A stretch of 64,000 nt of DNA from a virus: positions 51,552 through 115,551 of IMG/VR virus record IMGVR_UViG_3300032286_001377; one strand, 5' to 3'. Position numbers and translations under genes: made by a program. This document shows, in pieces, positions 11,316-51,796 of this stretch (position 1 is the stretch's first letter; every line of letters starts with the position of its first letter). The notes beneath the pieces were generated by a model. The model was given only the letters and a program-made list of their open reading frames with translations, had not been told where the DNA came from and ran no database searches.

Positions 11316-12527
11316 TTAATCTAACCAAATTGAATACTCTGAAGTAACACCTTGCTCAGGGTGAATGTACATTAAATGTTGAGATGGACGACTCATTGAA
11401 TTAAAATACTCTTGAGCATACGTATTATAACTTTCTGGGGACCCAGAAACTCTCAAAACAGTAGTACCAATAGACATTTTAAAACTCTGATGATAGTGAC
11501 CCATGAAAACATCATCAAAATGCTCGGGGATGGCACCATCTTTCCATCCAAAGATTCTTTTATAGTAACCACTGACAGAGCTAGGATGAGGTAATTGATC
11601 CCCATGGATTAAAAGTGTTTTATAATTACCTATCGCATCCACTGCATACCAATTTCTTTCTCCTCTTCCATCAGGAATGTTGAAAGTTATTCTAGGTTCT
11701 TTTGTGAAAATTAAATTGACAATCTTATATAAGAGCCTATCCATATTAGTTTCAGGATCATACTGTCGCCTATTTCTTCCACCTACTGAACCATGGTTGC
11801 CAATCACCCCAGTAACATGAACATGTTCGAAGTTCTCTAACGCAGTACTTAAAAAGTTGCCTAATATTTCAGGACCATTAACACCAACTTGACGATACAA
11901 GCCAGAATCAATAAGATGACTCTGACCAGGAAAAATTTCTTCACCCTCAACAATATCGCCTAACAGCCAAACATGTAAATCATTTACAGGATGATGAGCT
12001 CTTTGAATCTCAGTGATCTCTAATAATTTTTCAGTATATTGCTCAATTCTCTGGGCAGCTACTTCAGAATTGTAATCAGGAGTAACTTTCCCCAGTTGCC
12101 AATCAGCAAAAACTGCAACAGCTGTCTCTGAAGCTTTTGAACTTTTTGGAAAAGAAGGTCTTTTAATCTTAGGCAGATCAAAATTACTAAACGCATCAAA
12201 CGCTGCACGATACACTGCAAAAGAAGCTTCTGTATTTACGTTCTTATAACGATCTGCCAATCTGCCAAGTCTTTTATTCTCTGCTCTAAGAAAATCAACA
12301 GTAGAAACTTCTTTAATATCCGCTTCAACTAGATCTTCTTGATCAATTTCATCAGCCCACTTTTCTAGAACATAGGCCCTATCTTCGTTAGACGCACCTT
12401 CTTCAATTGAGGAAAGTGAATCTAATAAATCACCAACACCATCTAAACCCTCGACTATTTTTCTAGCTTCCACCATATTTGGGGCGCGAACAATTGATTT
12501 CTGTACAATAGTGTACATCTTAGTCAT
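11316..12527 (-). CDS. Calcineurin-like metallophosphoesterase
   Basis: The 403-aa protein has ATG 12527 with AGGTGA upstream. All the metallophosphoesterase motifs can be followed: FADWQLGK near residue 140 (the D-x-H/Q metal ligand position), GDIVEG near 190, GNHG near 241, LIHGD near 306 and GHYHQ near 341. The last two supply the His ligands. Members of this fold hydrolyse phosphomono- or diesters, including nucleic acids, at a dinuclear metal centre. The usual GDxxD has Glu at its last position (GDIVE) and GNH[DE] is GNHG, so the metal site may be modified. The N-terminal 130 residues are helical and acidic with no motif I know. It sits between baseplate J and the giant adhesins, an odd place for an enzyme. 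It could be virion-associated or merely co-transcribed. Substrate unknown. Confidence 0.85.
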   Translation of the reverse strand: MTKMYTIVQKSIVRAPNMVEARKIVEGLDGVGDLLDSLSSIEEGASNEDRAYVLEKWADEIDQEDLVEADIKEVSTVDFLRAENKRLGRLADRYKNVNTEASFAVYRAAFDAFSNFDLPKIKRPSFPKSSKASETAVAVFADWQLGKVTPDYNSEVAAQRIEQYTEKLLEITEIQRAHHPVNDLHVWLLGDIVEGEEIFPGQSHLIDSGLYRQVGVNGPEILGNFLSTALENFEHVHVTGVIGNHGSVGGRNRRQYDPETNMDRLLYKIVNLIFTKEPRITFNIPDGRGERNWYAVDAIGNYKTLLIHGDQLPHPSSVSGYYKRIFGWKDGAIPEHFDDVFMGHYHQSFKMSIGTTVLRVSGSPESYNTYAQEYFNSMSRPSQHLMYIHPEQGVTSEYSIWLD

Positions 12528-12541
12528 AATTCACCTATCTA

Positions 12542-13711
12542 TCAGTAGTTAGATGTACCTATTATAACAGCATAAATGTTAACATTTCCAGCTGCAGCAT
12601 AACGTTTTACAGTATTTAAATCAAAATCTTTAAGTGGCAGCTCTCCGCCATCTGCGTTGAAGCCGCTTATAGTAACATTTCTAATTAGATCAGAAGAAAG
12701 CTTTATCTGTTGTTCGATAGTGGCAATAGAAACAACATCTCCAATTGATAAAGAATTTAGATATCTTTTAACAAAAAGTTCCGCTTGTCTTCTTACTCCA
12801 GTTATCATATTGGTTGTATTTCCACTTGGAACAGTAATAGTAGCTGAAAGGTTTATCGACACCTTTTCAGCTATGCGAACATTAAATCTCACACCAACTG
12901 GCTTAACTGCATAAATAGCAGAAAGTATTGCTTCTGGCAAAGGGCGGAGAGCAACAGAAGCTTCCGGCACAACAATAATATCGCAAGAGCCTATACCATA
13001 GCTTGCTTCTCTAATCCTAACATCTCTTACGCCCTTAACTGCCAGGGCAGCAAAGCGAATAGATTCTGCAGTTCCTGCTGATTTAGATTTAAGTGAAGCG
13101 ATAATTCTTCTGCGATAGTTTGAATCAGACTCAGAATTAGGGTCAGCATAAATTTCTTTTGGATTTGAACAGAAAACTACAACAGCAGATGGCCCAATAT
13201 AATTATGTTTAGTTAAACTGCCAACTGGAGCAACGTAAGAATTATCGGTAAAATTAGGCTCAACCCTTCCATAAGCCTTAAGCGTACCTGCTGTTATAAC
13301 AATGGGTCCAGAAAGCTTAAAACTGTATTGCCTTATTGTGAAAGCTGAAACATCAGTATATATTAAAGTATCTTTTGGAATAGTTATATCTGTACTATGA
13401 ACTTTATCTAGAAAAAATTCAATATTATAAGATTGTCTCTCTTGAGAAACTACAGATGTAACAGATTTTCTTGGTATGCCATAAAGATCTCCAATTAAAT
13501 CTAAATTTCTACCCATTGCAGTACTAAGATTATTTTGATTAATAGAATATCTCAGAGCCTCATATAGGTCAGAAACTTCTGAACTAAATGCTTCTGCAAA
13601 AGCTCTAGCAATAGAACCAGGATGAGTAGCAGTGATGCCTGCATTTTTTTCTAGATTATTAAGAACAGAAACTAAAACATCTGACTTACTTTTAACTCCA
13701 TAGACTGGCAA
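12542..13711 (-). CDS. Baseplate J-like (gp47/gp6-type) wedge protein
   Basis: This 389-aa protein starts at TTG 13711, with GGAG 7 nt upstream; no ATG near the conserved N-terminus fits better. The N-terminal pattern (HPGSIARAFAEAF, then AMGRNLDLIGDLYGI) and the central pattern (SDSNYRRRIIASLKSKSAGT, then VKGVRDVRI) are characteristic of the Baseplate_J family, which forms the wedge around the hub in contractile tails. The gene directly follows the gp25-like gene with a 1-nt gap, the order normally seen in myophage baseplate operons. Length is normal for the family. The function is assigned from the family with good confidence; the TTG start is a reading from the Shine-Dalgarno position. Confidence 0.92.
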   Translation of the reverse strand: MPVYGVKSKSDVLVSVLNNLEKNAGITATHPGSIARAFAEAFSSEVSDLYEALRYSINQNNLSTAMGRNLDLIGDLYGIPRKSVTSVVSQERQSYNIEFFLDKVHSTDITIPKDTLIYTDVSAFTIRQYSFKLSGPIVITAGTLKAYGRVEPNFTDNSYVAPVGSLTKHNYIGPSAVVVFCSNPKEIYADPNSESDSNYRRRIIASLKSKSAGTAESIRFAALAVKGVRDVRIREASYGIGSCDIIVVPEASVALRPLPEAILSAIYAVKPVGVRFNVRIAEKVSINLSATITVPSGNTTNMITGVRRQAELFVKRYLNSLSIGDVVSIATIEQQIKLSSDLIRNVTISGFNADGGELPLKDFDLNTVKRYAAAGNVNIYAVIIGTSNY

Positions 13712-13712
13712 T

Positions 13713-14093
13713 TTAGTCTCCTAATGTTTGTGTTACAGAAAGTGTTATGGGCTGATCTATATCAGATATAACATGAACGTCGAATCTAATAGTATCCCTA
13801 CTTGTAGGAATTGCATCAATTCTAATATCCCTGCCTTTAAACAATCCTTCTCTTTGAAGGCCTGTTCTAATTAATCTTTTTCCAAATTCGCCAGTCTCTG
13901 GAGTTTGTGGCATCCCATATAATAACGAAAGATCAATACCAAGCTGAGGATAAATGTAGAAATCGCCAGGTTCAGTCATGAGCCTTAAATACACCTGCTG
14001 AATATCTGACTGAAGCGATGAATTAACCATTGCGATATCCATGTTTCCATTTATTACAATATCACCAGTTAATGTAAAGTATAAATCACTCAT
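13713..14093 (-). CDS. gp25-like baseplate wedge protein
   Basis: A GPW/gp25-like protein. The conserved run GDIVINGNMDIAMV, a Q-x-V-x-x-R-L-x-T-E-P-G stretch (QQVYLRLMTEPGDF) and YPQLGIDLSLLYG match the small lysozyme-like fold found in T4 gp25, an early wedge component that binds sheath and hub. I place the start at ATG 14093 (MSDLYFTLTG, 126 aa) and not at the upstream ATG 14129, because AAAGGA lies just before 14093 and the shorter form overlaps the previous gene by only 8 nt. The leading residues of the longer form (MIRHMRRLQRKL) look like out-of-frame translation of the neighbour. It is coupled to the upstream spike-associated gene and to baseplate J downstream. Confidence 0.9.
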   Translation of the reverse strand: MSDLYFTLTGDIVINGNMDIAMVNSSLQSDIQQVYLRLMTEPGDFYIYPQLGIDLSLLYGMPQTPETGEFGKRLIRTGLQREGLFKGRDIRIDAIPTSRDTIRFDVHVISDIDQPITLSVTQTLGD

Positions 14094-14721
14094 TAGTTTC
14101 CTTTGAAGCCTGCGCATGTGCCTGATCAAAACTTAAACCTTGTCTTAAATGCTTCACAATAAGAGCGATATGCAACTCGGAATAAGAAGATGCATAAGCT
14201 TCCAGAAGACCAATCTCTTCAAAGCTTAAATCTGATATATCATAATCGGACACATATTTTTGTTGAGGAATAGTTTCTCTTGTAGAGAATTTGTTCTCAG
14301 CTAATATAGTAATTGGTTTCTGTTTTTCTTCCCGTTCAATCATACTTACAGTATCAAGATAGTAAGATGCTCCGTTTTGTGCGGTATGAATATCTTTCAA
14401 ATTTATTTTAACTAAAGTAGGCTCAGAAAAAGAAGAAGCTGAATAATTAAAATAATAGCTATTCCACTTCAATCCATCTTCTTTGCAACTGAATTTAATT
14501 GTATCCGCAAAAAAAGATATACTTTTGGACTTCGCACTAATAACAATACCAATACCTGGAGTAGCAAAAATTTCAATATCACCTTGATCATTTAGTCTCA
14601 TAAAAGATTCATTATCAGGATGATTAAATCCAACTTCTCTTTCCGAAAATTTTCTTCTTTTGGAAAGTTCTTTCTCTACAGGTATTTCTCTTCTAAAAAC
14701 TGCATTTTTGTTAACATCCAT
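14086..14721 (-). CDS. Baseplate-associated protein, unrecognised (possible spike or hub accessory)
   Basis: This 211-aa protein begins at ATG 14721, which overlaps the stop of the gpV-like gene as TGATG, so translation is coupled. Residues 40-75 (LNDQGDIEIFATPGIGIVIS, then SKSISFFADTIKF) alternate hydrophobic residues in short strands, as in a small beta-helix or OB-associated spike segment. The C-terminal third is acidic and helical, with SDLSFEEIGLLEAYASSYSE and a final KHLRQGLSFDQAHAQA helix. I do not recognise a family. Its position between a gpV/gp5-like OB protein and gp25 fits a central-spike extension or baseplate hub adaptor, but that rests on gene order alone. Confidence 0.7.
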   Translation of the reverse strand: MDVNKNAVFRREIPVEKELSKRRKFSEREVGFNHPDNESFMRLNDQGDIEIFATPGIGIVISAKSKSISFFADTIKFSCKEDGLKWNSYYFNYSASSFSEPTLVKINLKDIHTAQNGASYYLDTVSMIEREEKQKPITILAENKFSTRETIPQQKYVSDYDISDLSFEEIGLLEAYASSYSELHIALIVKHLRQGLSFDQAHAQASKETNE

Positions 14722-17563: not shown

Positions 17564-20500
17564 TTAATTAGATACTGATGTCGGCATTGGTAGAGAATCA
17601 TTGGCATCAATAACGGAAGATGACTCTTTTTGTAAATCTTTCACAAAGACTTTTGCTAAGTTGTTGACAACTAACTCCCAATTTAAAGTAACGGGATGTC
17701 CATCAGGGAAATATTCATCCCAACTTACCCTAGGCCATTCGGATGCTTTGTCATATATTTCTTCTAGTACTTTAAAATAAACAAATCTAGAATAAAGTTT
17801 CCTTTGATCATCTGTAAGTAAATATAGACTATCCGCATCATTTTGAATATTAAAATATTCGTCATTAATTATTGACTCTACGCTTTCAAAAATTGAATCA
17901 AACTTTGTGAAGAAAGCTGATTTGTCATAGATGTCATTTTTTAGCTTGTCTTTAATTGATTCAAGAGCTGTCAAATTAGATCTAAACAAATTAGCAACGT
18001 ACGACAAAATATTGTCAATTTTTTCTTGAGGCAAATAATAAAATATGGTTGCCATAACACGTGATCCAGTTACATCGCCCTCATTTTCCCTGTCTCCACT
18101 ACCAAAAATATCTAGCTGATAATTTTGAATTGTATTAAGTTGACTTCCGGCTTCGAAATCTTGTTCAAGTACAGCTTTTCCGCCAATTGCATTGGAGCCT
18201 TCAGTTCTAGTCTGATTTATTCTTAAAACAATTAATTTATTTTCTAAAGCTTTCTTTACGAAAACTTTTGCTTTACCACCAGGAGTAGAAATATCTAAGA
18301 AGCTCAAATTTGTTGGATTTGTACTACTAGGATAATCAACTGTACCTTGTATTGTATTTGTTTCTGCTGCGTTAATACCATCAAAGCGAACTCTAAAATT
18401 TACCCCAGATATAATATCCGTGACATCGATTGTGTCACCGTCTAAAACTGAGTTAACTTGACAGATAACTCTGAATTGCCATTCAAAACCAGCTTTTTCT
18501 GGACCAAGACCAGATAACTTAAGAACCTGCGCATGAACTAGTGCTGACTCATAACTAATGTGTCTGTAGATATCATTAATAGCTACCTCATTCCAACCAA
18601 GGCTCTTAAATAGATCGTCACTTCTAATAAATGAATTCCCTTCTGGAGTTCTAGCTTTTACTCTTGTTCCAAGAATTCCAGGGAGAAGCGCCTTACTATG
18701 ATGCTGGCCTACCACCATTCCTTGATTATAGGACAATCCAGCGTCCATAGGCTGACCGTTCTTATTGAGATATTGTACATAACACCCATGTTGGTCAAGC
18801 ACATTATCTCTCACCCATTTCCAACCCTTCCAAACAAGTTGACCAATTCCAGGAAGCACTTGAGCCATAATGGCAAAAGTTGGAACTCCACCACCCTCTT
18901 CTTGACCTGCAGCATTGAGAAGTGAGCTATTGACGCCTGGAGCAATCATTGCTGTTTGATTTGCCATTATGTCTTTAACAAGGGCTGACGAACCATGGGT
19001 AAATTGGAATCCGCCAACAATTTGAGTAGTTAATATTTCACCTAATCTATCAACAGAAATATTTCCGCCAAAAGATAAACCTGAATTAGCATTTCTAATA
19101 TTGTCAATATAAATTCTGGCGTCATTTCTAACATTCTGAACGTGCATCCAAGACTGCATCCAGGATGTCATAAACCATCTTGCAGGATCATTAACAGTAA
19201 CTAAAGCATTAGGTGTAATAGAGGTAATGAATCCAAGTTCAGGAGTGAAATGATGAATGACTTGTTCTACTTCAAAAATCCCATACATTCTTTCATACAC
19301 ATCAGAAAGATACACTAAGTCGTGAGGCCTAATGTCACCATTCCCTATAACTAATAGCTCTCCACCATAAATATCTTTAATTGATTCCTTAAGGTGCGAT
19401 AATGCAACTCTTCTAGCACTCAGTTCATCTGGAGCACCTTGAATAGCTTTTGCTACACCTCTAAAGGTTTCCATCGGATGCATAAGTGGATGTAAAAACC
19501 CAGTAAAACCAGATCCAACTATATTATCAAAATAAAGACCAGTTTCTACTGTTTTTTCAACCTGCCTTTCAGCAGGCGCGCCTTTATCTAAAGCTACTGT
19601 CACTGGATATTTTCCATCAGATACGGCTGTTATTTGTGTCGCCACATTATTTAAATTTTCTTGAATCTGATTAGATAAAATATGAGAAAAAGAACTGATG
19701 TAATGAATTCTTTGAAATGGCTCTCTAATTTCAACTACTGGCTCACCGTATTCGCGAGTGAAAGGATTATCTACAGCTCTTAGAAGTGTTCCTGGTCGAC
19801 CAAGAGAATAATAAATAGAATCATTTAATGCTTTGTTTAAAATATTTGCTTGCTTTTTAAAGTTTCCAACTTCAGACAATGCATAACCCAACTGTTGCAT
19901 CGTTGTTTTGAACATTGATATTAAACCAGAAAGTGCATCACCGACAGCAGAAACGATTGGACCAATGGTTCTTGATGCAAATTCGGAAACATCTGAAACT
20001 ACTTCAGAAAAATAAGTATTAGAACTATTACCCTCCCCTCTAGTGCTGACTAATAGTTGCAAAAACTTTGCTTTCTTACTTGGCTTTGCATAGTCTGAAT
20101 TGGGATCAATATACGCTCTAAATACTTTATCTACAGGCTTAAAAGACCATCCGTCATCAGCGCTAAACCAACCGGCTTTCTTATCTGGCTTCAAAACCAA
20201 CCATGCTCGCGCATATGGGTCTTCCCACAGTCTCTGCCTAAATAATCCAACCATTAAAAGGAATAACTGTTTTGGTGTTTTAATATTCTTTTTTAATATA
20301 TCTGAAACATCAATAACCGCATTATCGTCTTTATTTGAAGCTTCTATACTAAAATGTAAAACACTTAAAACACTTTCTCCAGCAAAAAAACTTTCATAAA
20401 TTTTAGCTAAATTTTTAGAAAAAATATTATTAAAATAAGATAAGAGACCACCTTCATCCAAGGGTGCGTCTATATAATTTTTTCTCATAAATTCAATGGC

Positions 20501-23500
20501 TTCTGAATAATCTTTACTAGGATTAGAAGAACTAGAGCCACCGCCACCACCATAGTCTGAGCCAAATAATATCGCAAATTCATCTTGGGCGCTATTATTT
20601 CCTGCCCCAAAGTACTTAAATGGATCATTAACATCTTGACCAGATATCATGTTACTAAATTCTGGTGGAAATTCTTCTTCTAAATCTGGATCTAATCCAT
20701 AAACATCAAAAAATATTCTTTTAACACTTTCATAGTTATGATATTCAGCCCTGAAATAGTCCCATATATCTTGCGCTTCTCTATTTGTTCTACCATTACC
20801 GGCAATAACGCTAACGCTAGTGTCAAAATTTTCGTCAAAATAACTTCTTGCCTGAATACTAACAATATCTGAAGGATCATAAACGGCAGAGAAGGACGTT
20901 CTTACATCCTCTGCTTCTCTCCTCTTTTTAAGCTCTTCTGATGTCAGAGATGCAGTATCTTTATCTATTGCTAGTTGAAAATAACTTTTACCATCTTTAA
21001 CATTTAAAGCATTTCCGCCAAACGCAAGAGCATCTATCGCAGATTGAAATTCTGAATTATAGGGAGCATACCAATCAAAAACACTATTTGATTTACCTAT
21101 TGCATTAACTACATCTATTGCTTCGCTGCCTATTTCTCTAGCAATATAATCTTGTCCCTCATTGATTTTAAAATTTCCAAACCCAACTATATACATACTT
21201 TCACTTTCCGCTACAGTATCCAACTGATCTTCAGTAGCGGCATTTTGTAATTTAAACTTATTAATAGGAAGAACTGTAGTGCTTATGACTCCGACTGGAA
21301 TATCATCTGGAACAAATGAGAACATACATTCTTGAGGTATAGGTGCAGTCCTATATCCTGAATCTAGCTCTGCAAAAAATTTAATTCTATTAAAACCATT
21401 GACATTAAATGTCGCCTCATCTGCTTGTAACATTGGGAAATTCAATGCATCAAGTGTAGAATCACTTTTCTCTAAAAGTCTTTTTGCTTCAGCAGAGGTA
21501 TAAGTTATAACACTTAAATAGAACGCTGCATCGGGGGAGACTAAAGCCGATAATTCATTGCCATCAATGTAGTTTGCATCAGAATTAGGAATAACGGCTT
21601 GAATATCTGAAGTGAGATTTTCTTTACCCCACATGAAATATGCTGGCTTGCAAACAACAGCTCTACCATTGTTAGGGTTATAGACAAGAACTTTACGTTT
21701 TTTATAATCTTCTGCAGTACCGTATAGATTAGTGAATCCATATTCTGATTTAAATTTACTTAGTGTGGCATCGTCTGCTTCGCCAGAAGGATTGTATGGC
21801 CATTTCATAGCAATGTAGAATTGTTCATCTTCAGGAGTTTCTGGAGCGCCCCACTCTCGATATGTTAGCTCTCCATAATTGTCTTTTTGATATTCAAAAC
21901 TAAATGAATCTGGATCATCATTAATCTGTTGAATAGATATATTACCACTTAAACCACCTTCAGACGTAAGACCTATCTGTGGTAGTGGCATAATAATTTT
22001 TTGATCCTCAATTTGAATAATGCCCTCTATCTGATCATAGAGCGGAGAAAAATCCAATGGTGAATCAAAGTTCACAGTACCCTCTATATCCCCTCCGACA
22101 GAGGGCATCAGTGAGAACTTAGTTTTTGCATAGAAGTCTAACTCTAAATTAATAACATCATCTAAACCATGATAAGTATTAGCGTTAACCCCCTCTTGCA
22201 ACACTACCCACCCCTGCCTCATTTTAACTGTGCTGGAGTTCTCTAATTTATATTTTTCAGTTACCGTAAAAAATGGAAAACCATACCTTGGTGGCAAATT
22301 GCCTATCTGCTTGTGTAAAGTCTTTTGACTTTCCATAGTAGATTCTGTAAAGAAGGCCTCACTATTTGAAGCTTTCATGTCCCTAGTTATAATTGGAAGG
22401 TGAGGGCCAATGCCAACCATACCTTTGCTAACTGGAAGTCTTGCAGATATTTTTGCTCCAGATTCTAAATCAAAATATTGATAAGCCTGTGGAGAATAAA
22501 AGTTAATTAATCTACCAGTAAAAAATTTAGTAGGAGAATAAATACCAGTAGATTCTGTTATCGCTTTTGAAACAGTTTGAAATGATTCATTAGGTTCAAA
22601 TGACTGAAAGAACTTCGCGTAATCTGCCAAAGGATTACTATCCTTATTTATTGTTTCTAAAATAGTATTTAGAACTTCATCTGGCCCTAGAGGTCTTGGC
22701 CCTGAAGAGGTTCCATCTTCTCTAGCTTTTTTCTCTCCAGAAAAACCAGTAGTCACTGGAACTACACCTGAAGTGTAAAGCCAATGTGGTTTACCATAGA
22801 ATACGGTAGACCTATCCTCAAATGGGCGTACCGCAACAATATAATTAGGAAGTAATCTTGCACAAATTTGGAACATATCCCAAACAGTTCTCATATATGT
22901 TTGTGCCCTAAATGATACCTCGTCAAATCCTGGAAGATCATCATCAGCATTAGGTGCAAGTATGCCCATTGTTTTAAAAATACTAGTTCCACCACGACCG
23001 CTCAACACTCCAAGTAGGCCAAGACCAGCAAGTGCGCCAGCAGCTGGGCCAGCTAAAGCTGCAGTTATGCCAGTCATACCAATACCTATCGCACCCTGAA
23101 CAAGGCCCGACCTGCCCTGAGCTTGAATTAGCTTATTGGATGCTGTTAAGTTTTCAATTGTTTCTTTGGCTGAAGAATCATTTTGCTGATACTTTTCCAT
23201 CAACTTATTATAGGTTATATCGGTTAACCTACCGAGATATCCTTCAGTTCTATCATTATATGATTCTTCGGGAACTAAAGATGATGCCGTAGACCAGCCA
23301 TCATCAATATCCCCTCCCATGAACTGTGCAATTCCGAGACCGTTTCCAGCATAGATGTTTCTCTTAAATATCTCAAGATCTGTTTGAGCGCTGAAGTTAG
23401 CCCACAATTGTCCAATAAGAGGAACAATGCCACCTCTTAAATTTGAAGAAAATCCCTCTGGTACAGACTGGCCACCACCAATATAGGTGAATGCTGCGCC

Positions 23501-26500
23501 AACTTTTTCTCTAATCCCGGCATTTTTGGCTGCTTCATCAGGATTTAATGGCTCATAAAGAACATTTCCAAAGTGTTTAATGCCAAACTTGTTTTCAGAA
23601 AAAATAGTTCCCCTAGTTGCATGAGCGAAAGCTTCTCTAGTTCTAGACGAACCCATAGACAGCAGTCTAACCATTAGATCTCTTGGCTCAGACATATACA
23701 TTCCAGTGTCTACGCCACCATCTATTTTTCCACTATCGCCTTTTTGCTTAGTTGAGTTAATCACGGCACCAAGTTCAATCGCATCAGATTGAGCTGTAAC
23801 TGTAACTATTTCTCCCTGCTCAACATTTGTAATAACACCATTAAATAATGTCTGCAGGGAGTTAGGATTAGCTCCGTATCCACCCCTTAAGTGAACTCGT
23901 ACTCCAGGCTTTAGTCTAATGTTAGCTATATCAACAATGTACTCATTTCTTAATCCAGATAAAACATTTCTGGACATATTAATAGCTCGCTCTACGATAC
24001 CTTGAAGCCCCTCAGATAAACTTAGTGAGTCAGTATTCATAGAATCGCCATCTGTAGAAAATATCGATGATGATTCTTTTTTTGTTAATTTAGAATAAAG
24101 ATTAGAAAGTCTAAATATTAAAGTGTCACCCAAAAGGTCTTCAGAAGATACTACAGAAAAATCTATAATAGATTGTAATCCATAGAAATTATCAAACATT
24201 TTAACGCCAGCAAAATATCCACCCTCATCAATAAGCCACAACATATAAGTAGGGAAAGCTCTAATCATTCTTCCAGATATATCCCTATATCTAGTATCTA
24301 CTAACATTGTCTCCCAATGAGTATATGCATTCTTGTTATGCGGTTTCTGATATCCTGACAAAGGAGTCACTCCACCAACTCCGGTAGTAGACTGTGTTGT
24401 GCCTTTATCTGGGGTTTGGGTATCTTCAATAAGATTAGCTTTAAGCTTATAACTAGATGTATTTGACCCACTGGTTACATTATCTCCAGCCAATGTTAAA
24501 TAGAATCTTCCAGTAGTCTTATCAATATATCCAAAATGAGTACCCAATGCTGTATGCATAATGGCGGGCATTCTGTTCGGTGATTCATTATTGGGATCAG
24601 AAGAAGGAATGATAAATATCTGCTTATGGAAATCTACCTCATCAGGATGAAAACTCACCTCATCCTCAACAGCAACCACTTGTTCGTTGCTATCATATAT
24701 TTGCTGATTATACTTACCTTCTAATGCGGCCTCTATTGAAGATAGCATCGCATAGTCATTAGGAGACACGTTTCCTACTTGATATGACGCAGGATTGACT
24801 TCCAGCATAAAAAAGGGATCATCCTCACCATTAGCTGGGTCTAAAGATATAAAATCAGTTAAAAGTTTTAGTTCAGTATCTTTATTGGCTTTACTTTCTT
24901 CTCTATTTATAATTTTATAAAAAATTCTAACAAAATCTTTTTTAGATATATTTTCAACTTTAAGATAATCAACCATCTGATCCAATAAATCAGCATTACT
25001 TCGAAGTGTGGCGGAATCGTTCGGATCTATATTATAAAGTCTTATAAAATCTAAAATTTTATTTGAGATTTGGCTTTCTTTTGCAGCCCTAGCAGGGCCG
25101 TCCATTCCATCCATTCCAGTCAAACTTGGATCTTCAAAATAATAATCTTGAATTTTTGGAGTCTGATCAGTAATGTTATTGATAACATCATTGTCAAACA
25201 TTTCAAAACTTCTAAAGTAGAAATCTGGATCTAGACATCCTACAGTTTCACCTACGTCATTTTTAATAAAAAGTGGAAAATCCGGATAAGCATTAAACGA
25301 TCCCCAGAGCTGCTTTATTCTTAAGAATGGATTCTTCTTAGTTCCAAATTCTTCAACCAATTGCGCCTGTTGTCTGCTACTTAATTCTTCTCTCTTTTGT
25401 TGGAAGATATCAAAATCTATCAAAGTAAGCTCAACATCATATATATGAGGAAAATTAGGCTTAGTGCTTACATTATAAGTGAGCGGCATTACATACTTAA
25501 TACCAGCTAAAGCTGTTATAATATTTTTAATCCCTAGAAATCCAATAACACCGGAGGCGTGTTCTAATCTAGCTAAGCCAGAGATGTGATCAAAAAGACT
25601 TCTAAATTTGATTAACTCTTTTTCGCCAACAACAGTCATTGATATATTTATAAAGCTATCTTTACCGCCAATATGCTGATAGGTTGGCTCATCTTGCATC
25701 TGGACTTGTAGCTTAACAAGATTATTTGCCAAAGAAACAGTAACACCATTAATAATTACTGCCTCTGGATCAAGATCCATTCTCACCATTGGAACTTCCC
25801 ACTCATTAAATTGGAAAGCCCCTGTTCGTGCTCTTGCAGCTTCCATTAGCGATTGAATTGGTCCACTCTGGAAGAATCTCTGATATATAGCTACATTAAA
25901 TGCGCGTGAAACTTCACCTTTGACCGTATCTCTATCTGGATATTTGCCATTTCTATAATATTGATCATTATATTGCTTATCTACTAGATAATTTAGATAC
26001 TCCTGAGGATTATTGGAAATAGCTTGGAAACCTCTTTTAATTGAATTTAAAGAAGTACTATCAATAAACTTTCCTTGAAAGCGATATAATTTTGTTTGCG
26101 GATACTGAGTTGTATCCGAATTTTTATTCTTTAACCACTCTTTTTCTTCATCAGTTAAAGTATTCTCTCCAATAAAATTAGCAATCAAGAAATCGTAAGA
26201 CTTATCTTCCATTGATTGAGAGTTAGATCCGGCGGTAATCATGTTTATTTCATCTAATATAATCTTATTAATAGATTTTGAATAAGAATTATTCAATGAA
26301 ATATCAATAGTTTCCGCCAATGAAATACCATAAGAAGCTGTTTGATTAATATCAATACCGATAGAATTCAGCAACCCCTCCCATGCAGACTGTCCAAGAT
26401 CGGTAAACATCTTTTCTTGCTCAGTTCTAAATGAAGAGGTACTAGGAAGAAATAGTTTAGTCTGAGATTCGGCGGGTGCAAATAAAGTTAGGTGATTGCC

Positions 26501-28588
26501 ATCTTTCCATTGATCAATAATATTTGTGGTAAGTGTTCCAGAAATTACATCATCTGAAGCATTAGTTGTTGGAGCAGGTGGCGGCGGAGGAATATAGGCA
26601 GTATCTCCAGGACCAAGCGCTCCCACAGGGCGATACTCAAAACCATTATAAACAACCTGATTAGAACTTAAATTGGCATCTTCGATAGTAGTTTGACCAG
26701 TTTGATCAATCTCCTTTACATCAGAAGTTTTTAATAAAAATTCTTCATTAACATATTGATTAAGCTGACCAGCTGCCTTACCCATATATTGTCTATATTT
26801 ACCCCAATGTATAGCCTGATTAAAATCAGATATCATCGGTAGAAATGGTTTGTGATTATAGTTAAGCAATTCTAGATCTACTGAAAGTGCAAAAGGGAAA
26901 TTTGGTATAGTTGAAATAGTCATATTGGCTAAACCGACTGCTGTAATACCATGCACCGAGTTAAGATAATGGCTCTTTACCGGAAGAATTGGCGAATATT
27001 TAAAGGCTGCAATGAGACCTCTTAAAGATGATAAAAATTTATCAACTTTTTCTTCTGAATCGCCATTCATTTTAAAATCAATTTTGAATTCTTCATTTAA
27101 TTTCAACGTAGCTGCATTATCTATTGATATTCCCCAAATCTCTTCGTAGTTAGGGAAAAATAATCTCATTCTAATTGTAGTTTCACGATATCCAGAATTA
27201 AACTTTGGACTATTCTTTTGACGAATAGCTCCAGGCATCATCGATCCAGCTTTAAAAGATGAGTTTACATCTATGGATACTGGAGGAACATAGAAATTAG
27301 CGGCTCCTAATCTTAGATGAAATATATCCGGATTTTCTGGAGAAATATTTGGTCTAAAAGGAGACTTTCTAAGAACTTCTTCTATTCTTTTTGATGTCTG
27401 CATACCTCTAAAAGCCAAGGTAAAAGAAGCTTTTCCATCGGCACCAACGCCGAATGCCCTTTCTAAAGAATCAAGAAAAGCTTCCTCATTATTAACTATA
27501 TCCTCCTGTCCACCACCTTTTCCATAATTTGAATAATCTCCAACTAAAGCTAGCGCATCAAAAATAAAAGTAACTAAACTTGGAAAATAATAATTTAGAT
27601 TGGCAAAGAAGATAGAATCTCTTTTTAAAAAAGTTATAATTTCATTAAGCAGTAAAAGCCATGGTGTGTCAGCAGTTTCTGAAATTGAATCAGCTGCAGA
27701 TTTTTTTATAGTAGCAAGATTTGCTGTTCGCCTTTTTCCATAACTAGCAATATCTGCTGCATACCCGGCGAGCGTTAATATTCCTATTTCTTCCATTTTC
27801 TGAAAAAGAGAATTTGTAGAAGCATTGCTTAATCCACCCGCTTCGGCAGGATTGATTACTGCTGCATTAACTTTTTGAAATACTCTGAAAAAAGAATTAG
27901 TCTGAGCTGCTGTGGGATCTCCATTAGGGAATGCTGTTGCATAAATATCATAAAAGTAACTTCTATCTACTGAATCATATTTAGAACCAAATGATTTTGC
28001 ATAGAAGGCGAGAACATTTGCTTCACCGACAATACTAGGAGTAAGATCAACCGAACTAGTTACTGGATTCTCAGATTGAGCAACTACTTCTTGAGTAATA
28101 AGTTCATCTATATTGAATTCAACGAATTTACTACCGAGATAGTAGTCTCTCCAAATTTTCAACCGCAAAGATGCTCTAACGCCATACACTCCAATTGATG
28201 CACTATCGGTGAAGATATAGCGATTGTTATAAAAGTCAGACCTTACTTCAGCTAAGGTAGATGGAGTAATGTTTCTATTATAAGAAGTCTTTACTTTTGA
28301 AATATAAGCAGAAATTATAGCTGGAGATATAATTGGATCACTAACAAATACTGATAAGCAGGCGTTAATAGCATCTACTGCGAACGCATCATTTTCATCG
28401 AGCTGAATAACCTCACTCCCGGTAAACCCATAAAGATCGGGGATATCAGAGGTACCATTAATGAATGATAAAAGATCAGATTCCTTATATGGAACATCCA
28501 GCATATAGAGCGCGAATACTTTATTATACAGAATATCCGCGCTGACAAAGTTAACTAGGAAACCTTTTGTAGTGTTATTTATCGACAT
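17564..28588 (-). CDS. 3674-aa hub-like giant tail protein with C-terminal SNase-like domain
   Basis: One uninterrupted frame of about 400 kDa, starting at ATG 28588 after AAGGT. Residues about 420-620 look hub-like (LRLGAANFYVPPVSIDV and a long beta-rich stretch). A PPPPPAP linker lies near 666, and a partly similar beta module is at about 960-1100. Near 1556-1600, RLKPGVRVHLRGGYG and LFNGVITNVEQGEIVTVTAQ resemble the gp27/gp44-type hub fold. A long Ala/Gly-rich hydrophobic segment lies near 1830-1863. A further hub-type element (GNGDIRPHDLVYLSDVYERM) is near 3076. Residues about 3369-3515 match a staphylococcal-nuclease domain: VLDGDTIDV, RVRFDGINAAE and RVMATIFYY align with the SNase DGDT, R35/E43 and R87 positions. 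Position between the tape-measure candidates and the lysin suggests a fused baseplate hub. SNase similarity is clear by eye; whether it is active is unknown. Confidence 0.85.
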   Translation of the reverse strand: MSINNTTKGFLVNFVSADILYNKVFALYMLDVPYKESDLLSFINGTSDIPDLYGFTGSEVIQLDENDAFAVDAINACLSVFVSDPIISPAIISAYISKVKTSYNRNITPSTLAEVRSDFYNNRYIFTDSASIGVYGVRASLRLKIWRDYYLGSKFVEFNIDELITQEVVAQSENPVTSSVDLTPSIVGEANVLAFYAKSFGSKYDSVDRSYFYDIYATAFPNGDPTAAQTNSFFRVFQKVNAAVINPAEAGGLSNASTNSLFQKMEEIGILTLAGYAADIASYGKRRTANLATIKKSAADSISETADTPWLLLLNEIITFLKRDSIFFANLNYYFPSLVTFIFDALALVGDYSNYGKGGGQEDIVNNEEAFLDSLERAFGVGADGKASFTLAFRGMQTSKRIEEVLRKSPFRPNISPENPDIFHLRLGAANFYVPPVSIDVNSSFKAGSMMPGAIRQKNSPKFNSGYRETTIRMRLFFPNYEEIWGISIDNAATLKLNEEFKIDFKMNGDSEEKVDKFLSSLRGLIAAFKYSPILPVKSHYLNSVHGITAVGLANMTISTIPNFPFALSVDLELLNYNHKPFLPMISDFNQAIHWGKYRQYMGKAAGQLNQYVNEEFLLKTSDVKEIDQTGQTTIEDANLSSNQVVYNGFEYRPVGALGPGDTAYIPPPPPAPTTNASDDVISGTLTTNIIDQWKDGNHLTLFAPAESQTKLFLPSTSSFRTEQEKMFTDLGQSAWEGLLNSIGIDINQTASYGISLAETIDISLNNSYSKSINKIILDEINMITAGSNSQSMEDKSYDFLIANFIGENTLTDEEKEWLKNKNSDTTQYPQTKLYRFQGKFIDSTSLNSIKRGFQAISNNPQEYLNYLVDKQYNDQYYRNGKYPDRDTVKGEVSRAFNVAIYQRFFQSGPIQSLMEAARARTGAFQFNEWEVPMVRMDLDPEAVIINGVTVSLANNLVKLQVQMQDEPTYQHIGGKDSFINISMTVVGEKELIKFRSLFDHISGLARLEHASGVIGFLGIKNIITALAGIKYVMPLTYNVSTKPNFPHIYDVELTLIDFDIFQQKREELSSRQQAQLVEEFGTKKNPFLRIKQLWGSFNAYPDFPLFIKNDVGETVGCLDPDFYFRSFEMFDNDVINNITDQTPKIQDYYFEDPSLTGMDGMDGPARAAKESQISNKILDFIRLYNIDPNDSATLRSNADLLDQMVDYLKVENISKKDFVRIFYKIINREESKANKDTELKLLTDFISLDPANGEDDPFFMLEVNPASYQVGNVSPNDYAMLSSIEAALEGKYNQQIYDSNEQVVAVEDEVSFHPDEVDFHKQIFIIPSSDPNNESPNRMPAIMHTALGTHFGYIDKTTGRFYLTLAGDNVTSGSNTSSYKLKANLIEDTQTPDKGTTQSTTGVGGVTPLSGYQKPHNKNAYTHWETMLVDTRYRDISGRMIRAFPTYMLWLIDEGGYFAGVKMFDNFYGLQSIIDFSVVSSEDLLGDTLIFRLSNLYSKLTKKESSSIFSTDGDSMNTDSLSLSEGLQGIVERAINMSRNVLSGLRNEYIVDIANIRLKPGVRVHLRGGYGANPNSLQTLFNGVITNVEQGEIVTVTAQSDAIELGAVINSTKQKGDSGKIDGGVDTGMYMSEPRDLMVRLLSMGSSRTREAFAHATRGTIFSENKFGIKHFGNVLYEPLNPDEAAKNAGIREKVGAAFTYIGGGQSVPEGFSSNLRGGIVPLIGQLWANFSAQTDLEIFKRNIYAGNGLGIAQFMGGDIDDGWSTASSLVPEESYNDRTEGYLGRLTDITYNKLMEKYQQNDSSAKETIENLTASNKLIQAQGRSGLVQGAIGIGMTGITAALAGPAAGALAGLGLLGVLSGRGGTSIFKTMGILAPNADDDLPGFDEVSFRAQTYMRTVWDMFQICARLLPNYIVAVRPFEDRSTVFYGKPHWLYTSGVVPVTTGFSGEKKAREDGTSSGPRPLGPDEVLNTILETINKDSNPLADYAKFFQSFEPNESFQTVSKAITESTGIYSPTKFFTGRLINFYSPQAYQYFDLESGAKISARLPVSKGMVGIGPHLPIITRDMKASNSEAFFTESTMESQKTLHKQIGNLPPRYGFPFFTVTEKYKLENSSTVKMRQGWVVLQEGVNANTYHGLDDVINLELDFYAKTKFSLMPSVGGDIEGTVNFDSPLDFSPLYDQIEGIIQIEDQKIIMPLPQIGLTSEGGLSGNISIQQINDDPDSFSFEYQKDNYGELTYREWGAPETPEDEQFYIAMKWPYNPSGEADDATLSKFKSEYGFTNLYGTAEDYKKRKVLVYNPNNGRAVVCKPAYFMWGKENLTSDIQAVIPNSDANYIDGNELSALVSPDAAFYLSVITYTSAEAKRLLEKSDSTLDALNFPMLQADEATFNVNGFNRIKFFAELDSGYRTAPIPQECMFSFVPDDIPVGVISTTVLPINKFKLQNAATEDQLDTVAESESMYIVGFGNFKINEGQDYIAREIGSEAIDVVNAIGKSNSVFDWYAPYNSEFQSAIDALAFGGNALNVKDGKSYFQLAIDKDTASLTSEELKKRREAEDVRTSFSAVYDPSDIVSIQARSYFDENFDTSVSVIAGNGRTNREAQDIWDYFRAEYHNYESVKRIFFDVYGLDPDLEEEFPPEFSNMISGQDVNDPFKYFGAGNNSAQDEFAILFGSDYGGGGGSSSSNPSKDYSEAIEFMRKNYIDAPLDEGGLLSYFNNIFSKNLAKIYESFFAGESVLSVLHFSIEASNKDDNAVIDVSDILKKNIKTPKQLFLLMVGLFRQRLWEDPYARAWLVLKPDKKAGWFSADDGWSFKPVDKVFRAYIDPNSDYAKPSKKAKFLQLLVSTRGEGNSSNTYFSEVVSDVSEFASRTIGPIVSAVGDALSGLISMFKTTMQQLGYALSEVGNFKKQANILNKALNDSIYYSLGRPGTLLRAVDNPFTREYGEPVVEIREPFQRIHYISSFSHILSNQIQENLNNVATQITAVSDGKYPVTVALDKGAPAERQVEKTVETGLYFDNIVGSGFTGFLHPLMHPMETFRGVAKAIQGAPDELSARRVALSHLKESIKDIYGGELLVIGNGDIRPHDLVYLSDVYERMYGIFEVEQVIHHFTPELGFITSITPNALVTVNDPARWFMTSWMQSWMHVQNVRNDARIYIDNIRNANSGLSFGGNISVDRLGEILTTQIVGGFQFTHGSSALVKDIMANQTAMIAPGVNSSLLNAAGQEEGGGVPTFAIMAQVLPGIGQLVWKGWKWVRDNVLDQHGCYVQYLNKNGQPMDAGLSYNQGMVVGQHHSKALLPGILGTRVKARTPEGNSFIRSDDLFKSLGWNEVAINDIYRHISYESALVHAQVLKLSGLGPEKAGFEWQFRVICQVNSVLDGDTIDVTDIISGVNFRVRFDGINAAETNTIQGTVDYPSSTNPTNLSFLDISTPGGKAKVFVKKALENKLIVLRINQTRTEGSNAIGGKAVLEQDFEAGSQLNTIQNYQLDIFGSGDRENEGDVTGSRVMATIFYYLPQEKIDNILSYVANLFRSNLTALESIKDKLKNDIYDKSAFFTKFDSIFESVESIINDEYFNIQNDADSLYLLTDDQRKLYSRFVYFKVLEEIYDKASEWPRVSWDEYFPDGHPVTLNWELVVNNLAKVFVKDLQKESSSVIDANDSLPMPTSVSN

Positions 28589-29037: not shown

Positions 29038-29049
29038 CTAATTCCAATC

Positions 29050-32000
29050 TCAATAAGACGACGCCAAAGAACCATAAGGATTACGGCCAACATCAGCAAT
29101 CCTGTTATACATAGTAGTGGAAATATTACCGTTAACGAGTCCACCAGCTTGTTTGTTAAATTCTGAAACTGATTTCCTATCACCATATAAAGATACATTA
29201 TAATTTATACCAGGATTATACCCACCCATATCTGGAGATCCAAGATTCGGGATCCTAGTTGGCATCCCACCTTCATAGGCTGAACCTCCAGGCAATAACG
29301 GTGGACCAGACATGTCATCATGAGTCCTATTCTTATAGGCCTTATATGCAAAGCTACCAACTATTAAAGCTGACATGCCAATAAGTCCTTTCTTCATTCC
29401 AGGACTACTAATTAAATCAAAATATTTGCCACCTTCTTGAATATCCTTAAGGGCAAATCTTTTATATTTTGCGGGAGTAAACATAGTTGGAACTGCGGAC
29501 TCCCCTATGCCAACAGATTCAATCATTTCTTTTTCAATACGAGCAAGATCTGGAGCACCGACTGTTTGCGCTAAGTCTGAAATAGTCCCTTGCGCATCAA
29601 GCCTCTGAGATACACTAGCTAAATCTTCCGCTACATCAGAAAAAGGAGATTTGATCCCTTCTGCAGAAAGTCTTTCGTATTCAAGCCTAGCTCTTACAAC
29701 ATCCGCTTGCTGAACAGCTTGTTGACGGGCGGCATTATCAGTTATCTCAGAACTTCTTTCCGAAAGAGCCTTCAATGTATTTGACTGAAGATCCGTCAAA
29801 GTAGTACCAGAACCTGGAGCTATCAATGCGTCAGCAACATCTTTAAGATTGTCAGCTTTAAGTTTATTAGCTGGACCGTGACCCATAATTGACAAAACAC
29901 TTTGTGCATTGGCTTGATCCAAACTACGAAGATGATCCAATCTTCGCAACTGCCTATTTGCCATAATATCAAAATGTGTCGCAGCCGCCGTATCACTCAT
30001 GGAATCAACGCCTACTGCTTCTGCGACAAACCTTAACGCACCAATATCAAAACCGGCCTCTGCACCAAGTTTATCCAAAGCGTTAAAAAGACCTTTCTTT
30101 TCAACACCTGAAACCTGAGAAGCTGCATGGATATCACCAAGAACATTTTCTCCAATCTGATTTATCTTAGCAGTCCAGTTATACAACTCTAAAGCCGAAC
30201 CCTCCTTCAGAACCTTAGATGTCATTGCTGAAACGGTAGCTAGATCTTGTCCGTGCTTCTGAACAATATACCTAGCTAAAGAATCTTCTGCCACAGATGA
30301 CTGGGCTAATGCAAGCACTGGATTAGATTTTAGGCCAGTAAGCCCCTTTTTTCTTATAGTATCTAAATATACATCAGTCTGCCTTGCCAGATAATCTAGT
30401 TTAGATAAACTAGCAAAAGCGTGATCTCTAGAGAGAGCAACATTTTTCATTAAAACATCTTCTATTTGTTTATCATCTCCAACTAAAGCCTTTTTGTACT
30501 GCTGCAACTCTGCTTCAATATCGGCCCTAGCTGCTACAGCTTGAAAAGCGCCAGAAGAAGTGCCTTGCATAGCATCTTCCATTCCGGCAATAATATCTTC
30601 CAAAAGCCGTTGTCTATCTCCAGCGTTCATTTTATTCTTAAGAAGAAATTCGTCAATCCCGGCAATGGTGTTCTGATTTGTGGAACCAATAGCTCTAGTA
30701 AAGCCAATTCTCCTTCCAAGAGAAGAGATTGCAGCTTCGCCAATCGTATTCAAACTCACGGCAGATTTTGTGCCAGCTGTTTTATATAAATCAAGAATCG
30801 CCTTACTAACTTTAGTTTCATCCAAAACTCCCATATTGTTAGTAAGATATTGTTGAACTCCAAGATTGACAGTTTTAGAAGTAGACAAGTTAACTGTTAA
30901 GTCAATGCCTTCTTCCTGAGCAATCAGACCTGCACTATAATTTATATTCTCTGGATTTAAAAGATAGTCACGCACAGATTGGCTAGCATTCTCCAGAAAG
31001 GCAGAATACTGATCCAGTGTTGACCCAACAATCCCAGATCTATTAACATACATTCCAAGGTTGCCGGAATTTTGTTCTATTTTTTTCAAAGTCATTTTAT
31101 CTAACGCCGAAGCAATCAATGCGCTAGATTCTCTACTGTCGGAATGATTCGCCAAGACCTCTAGCATAGAGTTGAAATCAGTAGCGGAACTAAGGCTTGA
31201 TCTTAATTCATTGCTGATATTAGGTGATGCAAGTAAGCTTTGAATATCTTCTGACATATCAAACTTCGCACCAGACTCTAAAAATGCCTTATATACACCT
31301 CTTTGAGTATACTCTGGTATAATTTTTTTTCCAGATTTATCAACCAAATCTGTTAACATCAAAGTAGAACTACCCGACTCAGCGAACCTGGCCATTCCTT
31401 CTCTAGTTAAAGTGTATGAATTTCCAACTCTTTCAGATACTGCCACAATAGCTGACTCAATTTCATCTGGATTTTTTATTCGGAGAGTTCTATTTCCTTT
31501 TGTTGGAGTGAATTCTATAACATCTTGCAACTGTGCGAATTTTGCTGCATCAGCGCCAGTAATATTATTTTGAGCATTTTCTTGCATGATGGCTGCTAAT
31601 GCATTTTTAAACCTATCATTACCAAACATACTTTTGATTGATTCTTGGTCCATATTCATTCTCATAAAAATAAATTCTTCTGGACCTGATGGTTGACGGA
31701 AAGATAGAAATCCAAGTCTTTTCATTCCAGCGCTATCTTCAAATGTAACAGTTCTTGCTATACCTTTATCGTCTAGGTCGAATCCACCAAGAGAGTGATG
31801 GAATTGACCAACAGCTATATTAGGAATAAACATTGTATGACCTTTAATTCTAAACTTTAGAGCATCTGTGGACATCCTGTTTCCGCCACTTCCAAATAAA
31901 TCTAAAGTCTCAAAACCATATGAACCATTTCTGCTATTTCCTAAAAGATACCCTGCATCCGTGGTGCCCATCAGTCCTCTTTCGGTATTGATGGCAAACC

Positions 32001-43571: not shown

Positions 43572-43582
43572 ATTTCACCTAT

Positions 43583-43625
43583 AAAAAATAATACGCACGA
43601 GAGCATTTGCCCCCGTGCGTATTAT
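43583..43625 (-). terminator. Intrinsic terminator of the main tail tube gene
   Basis: ATAATACGCACG (43588-43599) and CGTGCGTATTAT (43614-43625) make a perfect 12-bp stem, followed on the minus strand by TTTTTT. It lies 20 nt past the stop of the tube gene and just before the second tube-like gene, which must then be expressed by readthrough. Confidence 0.88.
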
Positions 43626-43644
43626 AGTAACGATTAAGCTAGTA

Positions 43645-44347: not shown

Positions 44348-45619
44348 TTACAATGTAATGGCGACCTGGACTTCGATTGTCTTAAGTTCGAAGGCAGGAG
44401 TTAAAACGAGGTCAATTATTGCCTTGTTTTGTGATGGCACATATGTGACATTAAAGTCACTGCCAAGCAGGGCTCCTAATAATTGCATTCCTCTCAGACC
44501 AGAAGTAATTGCAGTCTCCATTGAGTTACGAATCTCAATCGTTGAAGGCTGACCAATGTACTTCTGGCACTGCTGACGGACTACTAAAGTAGCCTCATCA
44601 ACAATTCGCTTAGTAGAAAGTCTAGTATAGTCAGAGGTAGACTGACCGAAAGTAAGACCTTCGCCAAAGACTGGAATCTTGTTAAAGTTAACGATGACAG
44701 TATTGACGCCCTTATTTGAAAGATCTGTCTGCTGGGTTCTAGTTGGAGCATAGCGGATCTGATCAACGTTATAGAGCGGCTTGTTAACAATTGAAGTATA
44801 GGAAGGAAGTCTGCTCATAGTGGCGGCCAAGAAGGCAGCACCATTTGTATATCCAAAACTATTAGAAGGAGTTGCGCTATTACCATTAACATAGTTAACA
44901 GGCATAACTTCACCAGCAACAATGGTGACATAAGGACCAACTGTAGCCCACACAGAGTTGCCATCTCTTACTGGAAGGTTAGGCAAAGCCAGATGAGTAG
45001 AGACCTGAGTAGGAGTCATTCTATCGGAAACATTAGCAACGTTGATATATGGCTTAATTCCCATAACTGCTATGCAAGGGTTGGTGCTCTCTGCAATAGC
45101 CTTTGTTGCAACAGCTGTCTTGTATGCCCAGTTATTAAGCGCGACAGAAGTATTGTCTGCATGGAAACCTAATTCTAGGTTATCGTTAGCAGGTGTAGCT
45201 GGACTTTCCCACTCTACCGGACTGCCACCACGACCCCATGGAATAATGATGTCAGGAATAGCGGCTTCAGCTGCTGCGAAAGCGGCGTTGAAGATATCTC
45301 CACCAGCGCTGACGCTAGTGAGTCCACCGGTTAAGTGAGCGAAAACAGTGTCACTAGGAAGCGGCACCAAGAACACTCTCTCCGCACCAGCGATTACCAG
45401 CTCAAGAAAAGCTCTATGAAGATCTGAACTAGCGCCAAAAGCGCTAATTACATCAGCCTCATTAGTAGCTCTTACAACGTCGAGATCTGCGATCCCTCCG
45501 GTATTATTAGCAGTAGACCGCTTAGCGATAGCCACGATACGAGGACCAACAGGAGCATCCTGTCTAGATACCGTATAAAAACGATCTTTAATTATTGTTG
45601 TTACTCCAGGTATAGCCAT
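44348..45619 (-). CDS. Tail sheath protein
   Basis: A 423-aa protein with a full GGAGG Shine-Dalgarno about 12 nt before ATG 45619. It begins MAIPGVTTIIKDRF and continues with repeated strand-loop units typical of the contractile sheath (GPRIVAIAKRST, then DVVRATNEADVISAFGASSD, then AGAERVFLVPLPS). The C-terminal third (DEATLVVRQQCQKYIGQPS, then TAITSGLRGMQLLGALLG) is the conserved domain that locks onto the tube. The sheath surrounds the tube and contracts on infection. It is shorter than T4 gp18 and nearer to the minimal sheaths. A second, much larger sheath-like protein is encoded just upstream. Confidence in the fold is high. Confidence 0.9.
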   Translation of the reverse strand: MAIPGVTTIIKDRFYTVSRQDAPVGPRIVAIAKRSTANNTGGIADLDVVRATNEADVISAFGASSDLHRAFLELVIAGAERVFLVPLPSDTVFAHLTGGLTSVSAGGDIFNAAFAAAEAAIPDIIIPWGRGGSPVEWESPATPANDNLELGFHADNTSVALNNWAYKTAVATKAIAESTNPCIAVMGIKPYINVANVSDRMTPTQVSTHLALPNLPVRDGNSVWATVGPYVTIVAGEVMPVNYVNGNSATPSNSFGYTNGAAFLAATMSRLPSYTSIVNKPLYNVDQIRYAPTRTQQTDLSNKGVNTVIVNFNKIPVFGEGLTFGQSTSDYTRLSTKRIVDEATLVVRQQCQKYIGQPSTIEIRNSMETAITSGLRGMQLLGALLGSDFNVTYVPSQNKAIIDLVLTPAFELKTIEVQVAITL

Positions 45620-51466: not shown

Positions 51467-51796
51467 TTAAACGTTTGATATTATAGTAATAGACAAAGAA
51501 CCAGCTGGTCCAAAGTCGGCTCCATTATTCATATCAATCACCGCATGAGCACCGTCTTTATCTATAGTTATACTTGCATTACCTATCGAATATGGATCAT
51601 CTTTTAATGAGGAAAGCGCATAAGCGGCAATGTTGAAAAGATCAGTCGTAGAGGTGCCAAACGCTGGAATATTAACTAATTCTAAAGTTGATACAGTCTC
51701 TGAGTTAACAACCAATTCCTCAGAGATAACAATAACTATACCATTATAAGTTACAAGAGGCTGGTTATACTTAATGATATCGTTATAAAATTTCAT
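51467..51796 (-). CDS. Small virion-region protein, unknown (109 aa)
   Basis: A 109-aa protein starting at ATG 51796, two bases after the stop of the upstream gene, so probably translated by coupling. The sequence alternates short strands (LVTYNGIVIVISEELVV, ASITIDKDGAHAVIDM) with one helix (TTDLFNIAAYALSSL). I do not recognise a family. It lies in the head-neck region between an Ig-like protein and the connector candidate. It could be a minor head or neck component, but nothing proves this. Confidence 0.6.
   Translation of the reverse strand: MKFYNDIIKYNQPLVTYNGIVIVISEELVVNSETVSTLELVNIPAFGTSTTDLFNIAAYALSSLKDDPYSIGNASITIDKDGAHAVIDMNNGADFGPAGSLSITIISNV

Follow-up and report, generated by a model that had tools for sequence, protein, structure and literature searches.

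A staphylococcal nuclease domain with conserved catalytic residues at the C terminus of a giant predicted phage baseplate hub protein

Phage tail hubs are known to carry cell-wall-cutting enzymes. The DNA analyzed here, a 64,000-nucleotide stretch of the viral record IMGVR_UViG_3300032286_001377 (positions 51,552 to 115,551; hereafter, the window), encodes a giant predicted hub protein that ends in a staphylococcal nuclease (SNase)-like domain, which raises the question of what a nuclease fold is doing on the hub of a tail. An arrangement of this kind has a precedent. Hardies, Thomas, and Serwer (2007; PMC2147016) assigned gp147 of phage 0305phi8-36 as a homologue of T4 gp27, reported an N-terminal SNase-related domain in the BtI1 homologue of gp147, wrote of its use that it was "not obvious why," and suggested intragenomic transfer from stand-alone genes as the source of the domain. 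When the literature on virion or tail nucleases was searched, this paper was the only relevant match. That tail hubs offered no earlier case, as the preliminary description of this DNA implied, does not hold, since the BtI1 hub SNase was already in the 2007 paper and the hubs of Acinetobacter phage vB_AbaM_ME3 (ME3), Bacillus phage vB_BauM_KLEB27-3 (KLEB27-3), and prophage-plasmids carry one too.

The features that bear on the identity of the giant protein are the following.

17564..28588, minus strand: giant predicted baseplate hub protein, an intact ORF of 3674 aa
26774..27322, minus strand: conserved N-proximal hub block, residues 423-605 (homology to hub relatives)
23522..24307, minus strand: conserved hub block, residues 1428-1689 (29-33% identity to hub homologues)
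19139..19744, minus strand: gp27/gp44-type hub core domain, residues 2949-3150 (Foldseek of a predicted structure)
18491..18790, minus strand: highly conserved linker between the hub core and the SNase domain, LNKNGQPMDAGLSYNQGMVVG... (alignment)
12542..14129, minus strand: baseplate wedge genes downstream of the hub, for a 389-aa baseplate wedge protein (phrog_6, E 6.5e-41) and a 138-aa wedge-like protein (phrog_120, E 2.9e-5)
44348..45619, minus strand: tail sheath (phrog_16991, E 9e-25)

The ORF shares five blocks, in the same order, with the hubs of KLEB27-3, phage MTATph1, and Bacillus/Paenibacillus prophage-plasmids (residues 423-605, 926-1069, 1428-1689, 1886-1936, and 2952-3146), and part of this set is also common to ME3 gp37, an annotated baseplate hub. 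The comparison of collinearity, made with annotated hubs of the 0305phi8-36-like group, covered those of KLEB27-3, MTATph1, the prophage-plasmids, and ME3. The whole protein matches phrog_20474 (E 2e-119), and the predicted structure of the hub core (residues 2949-3150, modeled with 34 sequences) gave 31 Foldseek matches in the PDB at E<=1e-3, including T4 gp27, Mu gp44, VgrG, and the PVC/AFP hubs. The presence of a tail sheath gene indicates that the tail is contractile. Based on the collinear blocks, the matches of the core fold, and the sheath and wedge genes, the 3674-aa ORF is, by sequence and predicted structure, a gp27-type baseplate hub of a contractile tail, and we infer that the protein is located in the virion.

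Other genes in the window include an exonuclease (phrog_284, E 7.7e-44) at 11316-12527, within the run of baseplate genes, and two adjoining paralogues of ~240 aa at 42825-44319, directly beside the tail sheath gene, which match phrog_9206 ("major head protein") and are perhaps tail tube proteins. Six relatives (L020, L039, L042, L043, L047, and L055; 0-11.3 kb) have the giant hub gene split into two to five overlapping ORFs, with differing break points, and L020 encodes the SNase part on its own, in a 520-aa ORF that starts just past the hub core.

The identity of the C-terminal domain was analyzed with sequence profiles and a predicted structure. The preliminary description had named the Pfam SNase family as the profile with which to check it, and PF00565 gave no match at E<=1 to either the window protein or any of ten relatives. 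PHROG family phrog_452 ("endonuclease"), to which the phage's own Pfam-positive stand-alone SNase belongs (E 1.4e-38), matched the 408-aa C terminus of the hub (E 9e-6) and 23 of 32 relatives. An independent SNase HMM, which combined stand-alone SNases of phages with the domains of KLEB27-3, MTATph1, and ME3 and contained no member of the window's hub family, matched the window protein at 2.4e-7 and its relatives, in the same place, at values down to 1e-11 (L060). With HHalign, the window-type SNase scored 3e-8 in the comparison with stand-alone SNases and 2e-12 in that with N-terminal hub SNases. Because these more sensitive profiles agree, the miss with PF00565 was not taken as a refutation.

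An AlphaFold model of the C terminus had a mean pLDDT of 68, with values of up to about 93 in the strands of the SNase core, and the top 50 Foldseek matches of this model in the PDB were all SNase or Tudor-SN structures (probability 0.99-1.00, E 1.2e-3 to 6.4e-3). The model thus contains the SNase OB-fold that the domain had been expected to adopt, and the Arg/Glu pair is kept in the sequence. The TM score to the target was about 0.5, as the insert described below lengthens the chain, and the best BFVD match was an uncultured-phage "Baseplate hub protein" with 38% identity. A tblastn search of cultured phages with the C terminus gave no match. The PF00565 result, together with the absence of any match when PDB sequences were searched with the C-terminal profile, might be taken to mean that short motifs resemble those of SNases by chance and that there is no true SNase domain. 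The independent HMM, the HHalign scores, the uniform Foldseek result, and the conserved catalytic residues refute this reading, which in our judgment has practically no chance of being correct. These profile- and model-based results confirm that the hub C terminus is a real SNase domain and, with the hub blocks and core fold, bear out the earlier proposal that a giant baseplate hub has an SNase domain fused to it.

The module and its parts were located as follows.

17639..18490, minus strand: SNase (thermonuclease-like) module, residues about 3367-3650, with an internal insert (profiles, predicted structure)
18431..18442, minus strand: DGDT motif, residues 3383-3386, equivalent to SNase D19-G20-D21-T22 (alignment)
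18362..18388, minus strand: RFDGINAAE, residues 3401-3409, with the R35 and E43 equivalents (alignment)
18059..18061, minus strand: R3510, equivalent to SNase Arg87 (alignment)
17738..18031, minus strand: helical insert of ~98 aa, residues 3520-3617 (alignment and high-pLDDT helices in the model)
17639..17704, minus strand: SNase C-terminal motif DGxPxTLNWELVxNNLAxVY, residues about 3629-3650 (alignment)

The three stretches on which the domain was originally recognized lie where they had been placed, with VLDGDTIDV at residue 3381 (window 18422-18448), RVRFDGINAAE at residue 3399 (window 18362-18394), and RVMATIFYY at residue 3510 (window 18035-18061). The DGDT loop and the Arg35/Glu43/Arg87 set read from them are also kept: by alignment, D21 corresponds to D3385, R35 to R3401 (the second Arg of RVRF), E43 to E3409, and R87 to R3510. 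The Ca2+ ligand position D40 is occupied by Asn (N3406) and the T41 position by Ala. The helical insert splits the fold: it follows the Arg87 strand and precedes the C-terminal SNase helix, whose motif, DGHPVTLNWELVVNNLAKVF (about residues 3629-3648), resembles the DG..N..LV..GLA.VY end of SNases. Since the helix is found past the ~100-aa insert, the module spans about 17639-18490; the location first given, residues about 3369-3515, was right, but the domain extends beyond it to about residue 3650. The window SNase therefore resembles staphylococcal nuclease (PF00565; phrog_452), including the phage's stand-alone SNase, in its fold and in D21, R35, E43, and R87, but differs from it in the fusion to a hub, the Asn in place of D40, and the ~100-aa helical insert before the last helix.

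Conservation of the catalytic residues was followed across the window's hub family in IMG/VR, which comprised 59 loci, 42 of them distinct when the window is included. D19, D21, T22, R35, E43, and R87 are invariant in 31 of 31 non-degenerate relatives (31 of the 42 distinct sequences). Across these relatives 25 of the 181 domain columns are invariant, and by a simple column count, which ignores relatedness, the chance of four preset columns all being invariant is 2.9e-4. In matched pairs, mean identity is 40% over the first half of the domain and 72% over the flank; that a domain evolving faster than its flank has kept its active site suggests that catalysis, and not just the fold, is under selection. 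Position 40 is N in 25 and D in 6 of the 31 relatives, and most Pfam-positive stand-alone phage SNases also have Asn there. Because this position is variable within the SNase family, the Asn at D40 in the window SNase is not disqualifying, and we keep it as a caution regarding activity.

The other 11 of the 42 sequences (L026, L030, L032-L039, and L043) differ at four sites, with T22 replaced by E, D40 by I, E43 by S/T, and R87 by K/D. In a tree built from the hub sequence with the SNase domain excluded, these degenerate copies form one clade (support 100) that requires a single change, which points to a single origin of an apparently dead SNase copy. Joint loss of T22, D40, E43, and R87 is expected if catalysis, not the fold, was dropped, and the retention of the degenerate copy in one clade indicates that the domain can persist without activity. 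Judged from these sequence comparisons, the window hub SNase is probably catalytically active.

In a wider scan, a hub-core alignment of KLEB27-3-like sequences recovered 48 more hubs, many of which have an SNase at the N terminus, in some cases with very large insertions. Among 10 less-inserted, divergent N-terminal hub SNases, only 7 of the 414 columns in the alignment are invariant, namely D19, G20, D21, T22, R35, E43, and R87, and 13 N-terminal hub SNases, including those of the large-insert kind, keep D19, D21, T22, R35, E43, and R87. The place of the SNase on homologous hubs is N-terminal (Bacillus, Moorella, and many uncultured phages), internal (ME3), or C-terminal (the window), which argues that its activity, and not one structural position, is what has been retained.

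These patterns bear on the possibility that the SNase OB-fold is a structural scaffold or adaptor in the hub, not a working nuclease. OB folds are common in hub/spike complexes, the clade of 11 keeps the fold after the loss of T22, D40, E43, and R87, and the N-terminal hub SNase of L103 (residues about 10-180) looks degenerate, with DGGT, Lys for R35, and no E43. A scaffold would, however, explain neither the loss of the catalytic residues as a block nor their invariance, which holds for all six in 31 of 31 other relatives despite the fast evolution of the domain and extends to the divergent N-terminal hub SNases, where no other positions are invariant. We consider a purely structural role unlikely.

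The distribution of other enzymes on these hubs was also analyzed. The window hub ORF gave no Pfam match to a peptidoglycan hydrolase, and a search of the window record for four hydrolase families (glucosaminidase, lysozyme-like, SLT, and M23) found none. If a tail-associated lysin is defined by a peptidoglycan-hydrolase domain in the hub, the window hub falls outside this class; it is like the tail-associated lysin hubs (0305phi8-36 gp147, T4 gp27/gp5) in bearing a putative entry enzyme on the tail hub, but theirs degrade peptidoglycan, whereas its own has a nuclease fold. An SNase was not seen in 20 hubs of the wider scan and three plasmid hubs. A hydrolase match is present in the hub frame of 13 of these 20 SNase-less hubs (glucosaminidase in 8, lysozyme-like in 4, and a weak SLT in 1), and matches to glucosaminidase, lysozyme-like, SLT, or M23 families occur in 0 of 17 N-terminal-SNase hubs and 0 of 12 window-family records, all of these counts ignoring relatedness. 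Exceptions to this exclusivity are ME3, which has an SNase and M23, and MTATph1, which has a weak VanY match. Where SNase hubs are encoded on plasmids of Cytobacillus and B. velezensis, the hydrolases have genes of their own, adjoining that of the hub.

SNase hubs occur in phages of both Gram-positive and Gram-negative hosts. The finding that the hub has either an SNase or peptidoglycan hydrolases in most relatives, and that several SNase-hub phages infect Gram-positive hosts (Bacillus, Moorella), would fit a domain retargeted to an envelope polymer, such as teichoic acid or another phosphodiester-linked glycan. Against this, the Acinetobacter phage ME3 has an SNase without a teichoic-acid host, and we know of no SNase-fold enzyme with an envelope-polymer substrate, so retargeting of this kind appears very unlikely.

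SNases are generally Ca2+-dependent and need Ca2+ above cytosolic levels, which argues for action outside the cytosol. The explanation that we prefer, and to which we give slightly better than an even chance, is that the hub SNase is a catalytically competent virion phosphodiesterase that would perform Ca2+-driven hydrolysis of nucleic acid at the tail tip during entry, as an interchangeable module. In this proposal, the C-terminal SNase-fold phosphodiesterase would be carried on the hub as part of the virion and would stay quiescent during assembly in the low-Ca2+ cytosol, so that the phage's own genome is spared. It would act at the tip of the tail while the phage attaches and penetrates the envelope, with external or periplasmic Ca2+ driving hydrolysis of extracellular DNA, or of DNA or RNA at or in the envelope, and would be exchanged as an entry-enzyme module like the peptidoglycan hydrolases on related hubs. 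The metal dependence, substrate, timing, and role assigned here to the hub SNase are what we infer. Several points count against this explanation. Besides the Asn at position 40, the persistence of a degenerate copy in one clade, and the exceptions to the SNase/hydrolase exclusivity, an unshielded nuclease located where the tube opens could put the phage genome at risk as it enters, and the phage also encodes a stand-alone SNase, beside which a nuclease on the hub could be superfluous.

This stand-alone SNase (G000:28591-28851; L001:1498-1860) lies outside the window, near glycosyltransferase-like genes, and has the GINAAE motif as in the hub domain. Stand-alone SNases, as open frames of 113-162 aa, are found in 32 of 49 contigs of this family, and many of the remaining contigs are short. 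These enzymes bear on a further possibility, in line with the preliminary description: on injection, the hub SNase domain might be released into, or otherwise get to, the host cytosol and there degrade DNA of the host or of competing phages, for take-over, nucleotide salvage, or superinfection exclusion. In favor of this, the hub sits at the front end of the tail, SNases cleave nonspecifically, and the stand-alone SNase, presumably for intracellular use, is encoded by the same phage. That enzyme would, however, already serve the cytosol, the hub normally stays in the envelope, and cytosolic Ca2+ is generally below what SNases need; we regard cytosolic action as quite unlikely.

Compared with known systems, the BtI1 hub, a homologue of Bacillus thuringiensis phage 0305phi8-36 gp147, belongs with the window protein to one broad family of gp27-type hubs and, like it, has a fused SNase. 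The BtI1 domain is N-terminal and was noted without analysis, whereas that of the window is C-terminal, split by an insert, and part of a 3674-aa hub, and its catalytic residues have here been followed across relatives. ME3 gp37 is likewise a hub homologue (phrog_8809) with an SNase, detected at Pfam level (E 4.7e-14), but its SNase lies within the protein (1126-1241), with an M23 peptidase after it, whereas the window hub has no recognized peptidase. KLEB27-3 gp035 and the prophage-plasmid hubs, annotated as "nuclease" in Cytobacillus pN497-ZHONG and B. velezensis pAD3, are hub homologues whose SNase keeps D19, D21, T22, R35, E43, and R87 as in the window; theirs is N-terminal, unlike that of the window, and several have peptidoglycan hydrolases encoded next door. 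From its sequence, the window domain is a C-terminal variant of the hub SNase first seen in 2007, now found to be widespread and constrained. New here, relative to the 2007 report, are the C-terminal placement, the evidence for catalysis, the breadth of occurrence, and the one coordinated loss.

In the literature that we searched, a tail-hub nuclease is mentioned once in passing, and no study of one was found. The conserved catalytic residues, their one joint loss, and the occurrence of hub SNases in phages of both Gram-positive and Gram-negative hosts make an entry-time nuclease a testable claim, and the cultured relatives KLEB27-3 and ME3 make the experiment feasible. More broadly, and tentatively enough that we think it somewhat likelier to be wrong than right, tail-tip nucleases may be a widespread, functionally maintained class of entry enzyme, in which, on the hubs of a large group of phages with contractile tails, an active SNase takes the place of a tail lysozyme, sits at differing ends of the protein, and uses extracellular Ca2+ to clear nucleic acid or another phosphodiester polymer. 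If true, this would add a class of phage entry enzyme and raise the question of how a phage protects its own DNA.

The origin of the hub domain was considered with an SNase-domain tree, in which C-terminal, N-terminal, and stand-alone placements gave p-AU values of 0.23-0.26. These values favor neither relocation within the hub nor repeated capture, and this sequence tree would neither support nor reject transfer from stand-alone genes. Scans of GTDB genomes with the C terminus and the hub core gave no confirmed host or prophage of the window lineage. In the Moorella phage MTATph1 (OR602862), a second, weak SNase match (E 0.003) is present at 29046-29180, in another giant protein.
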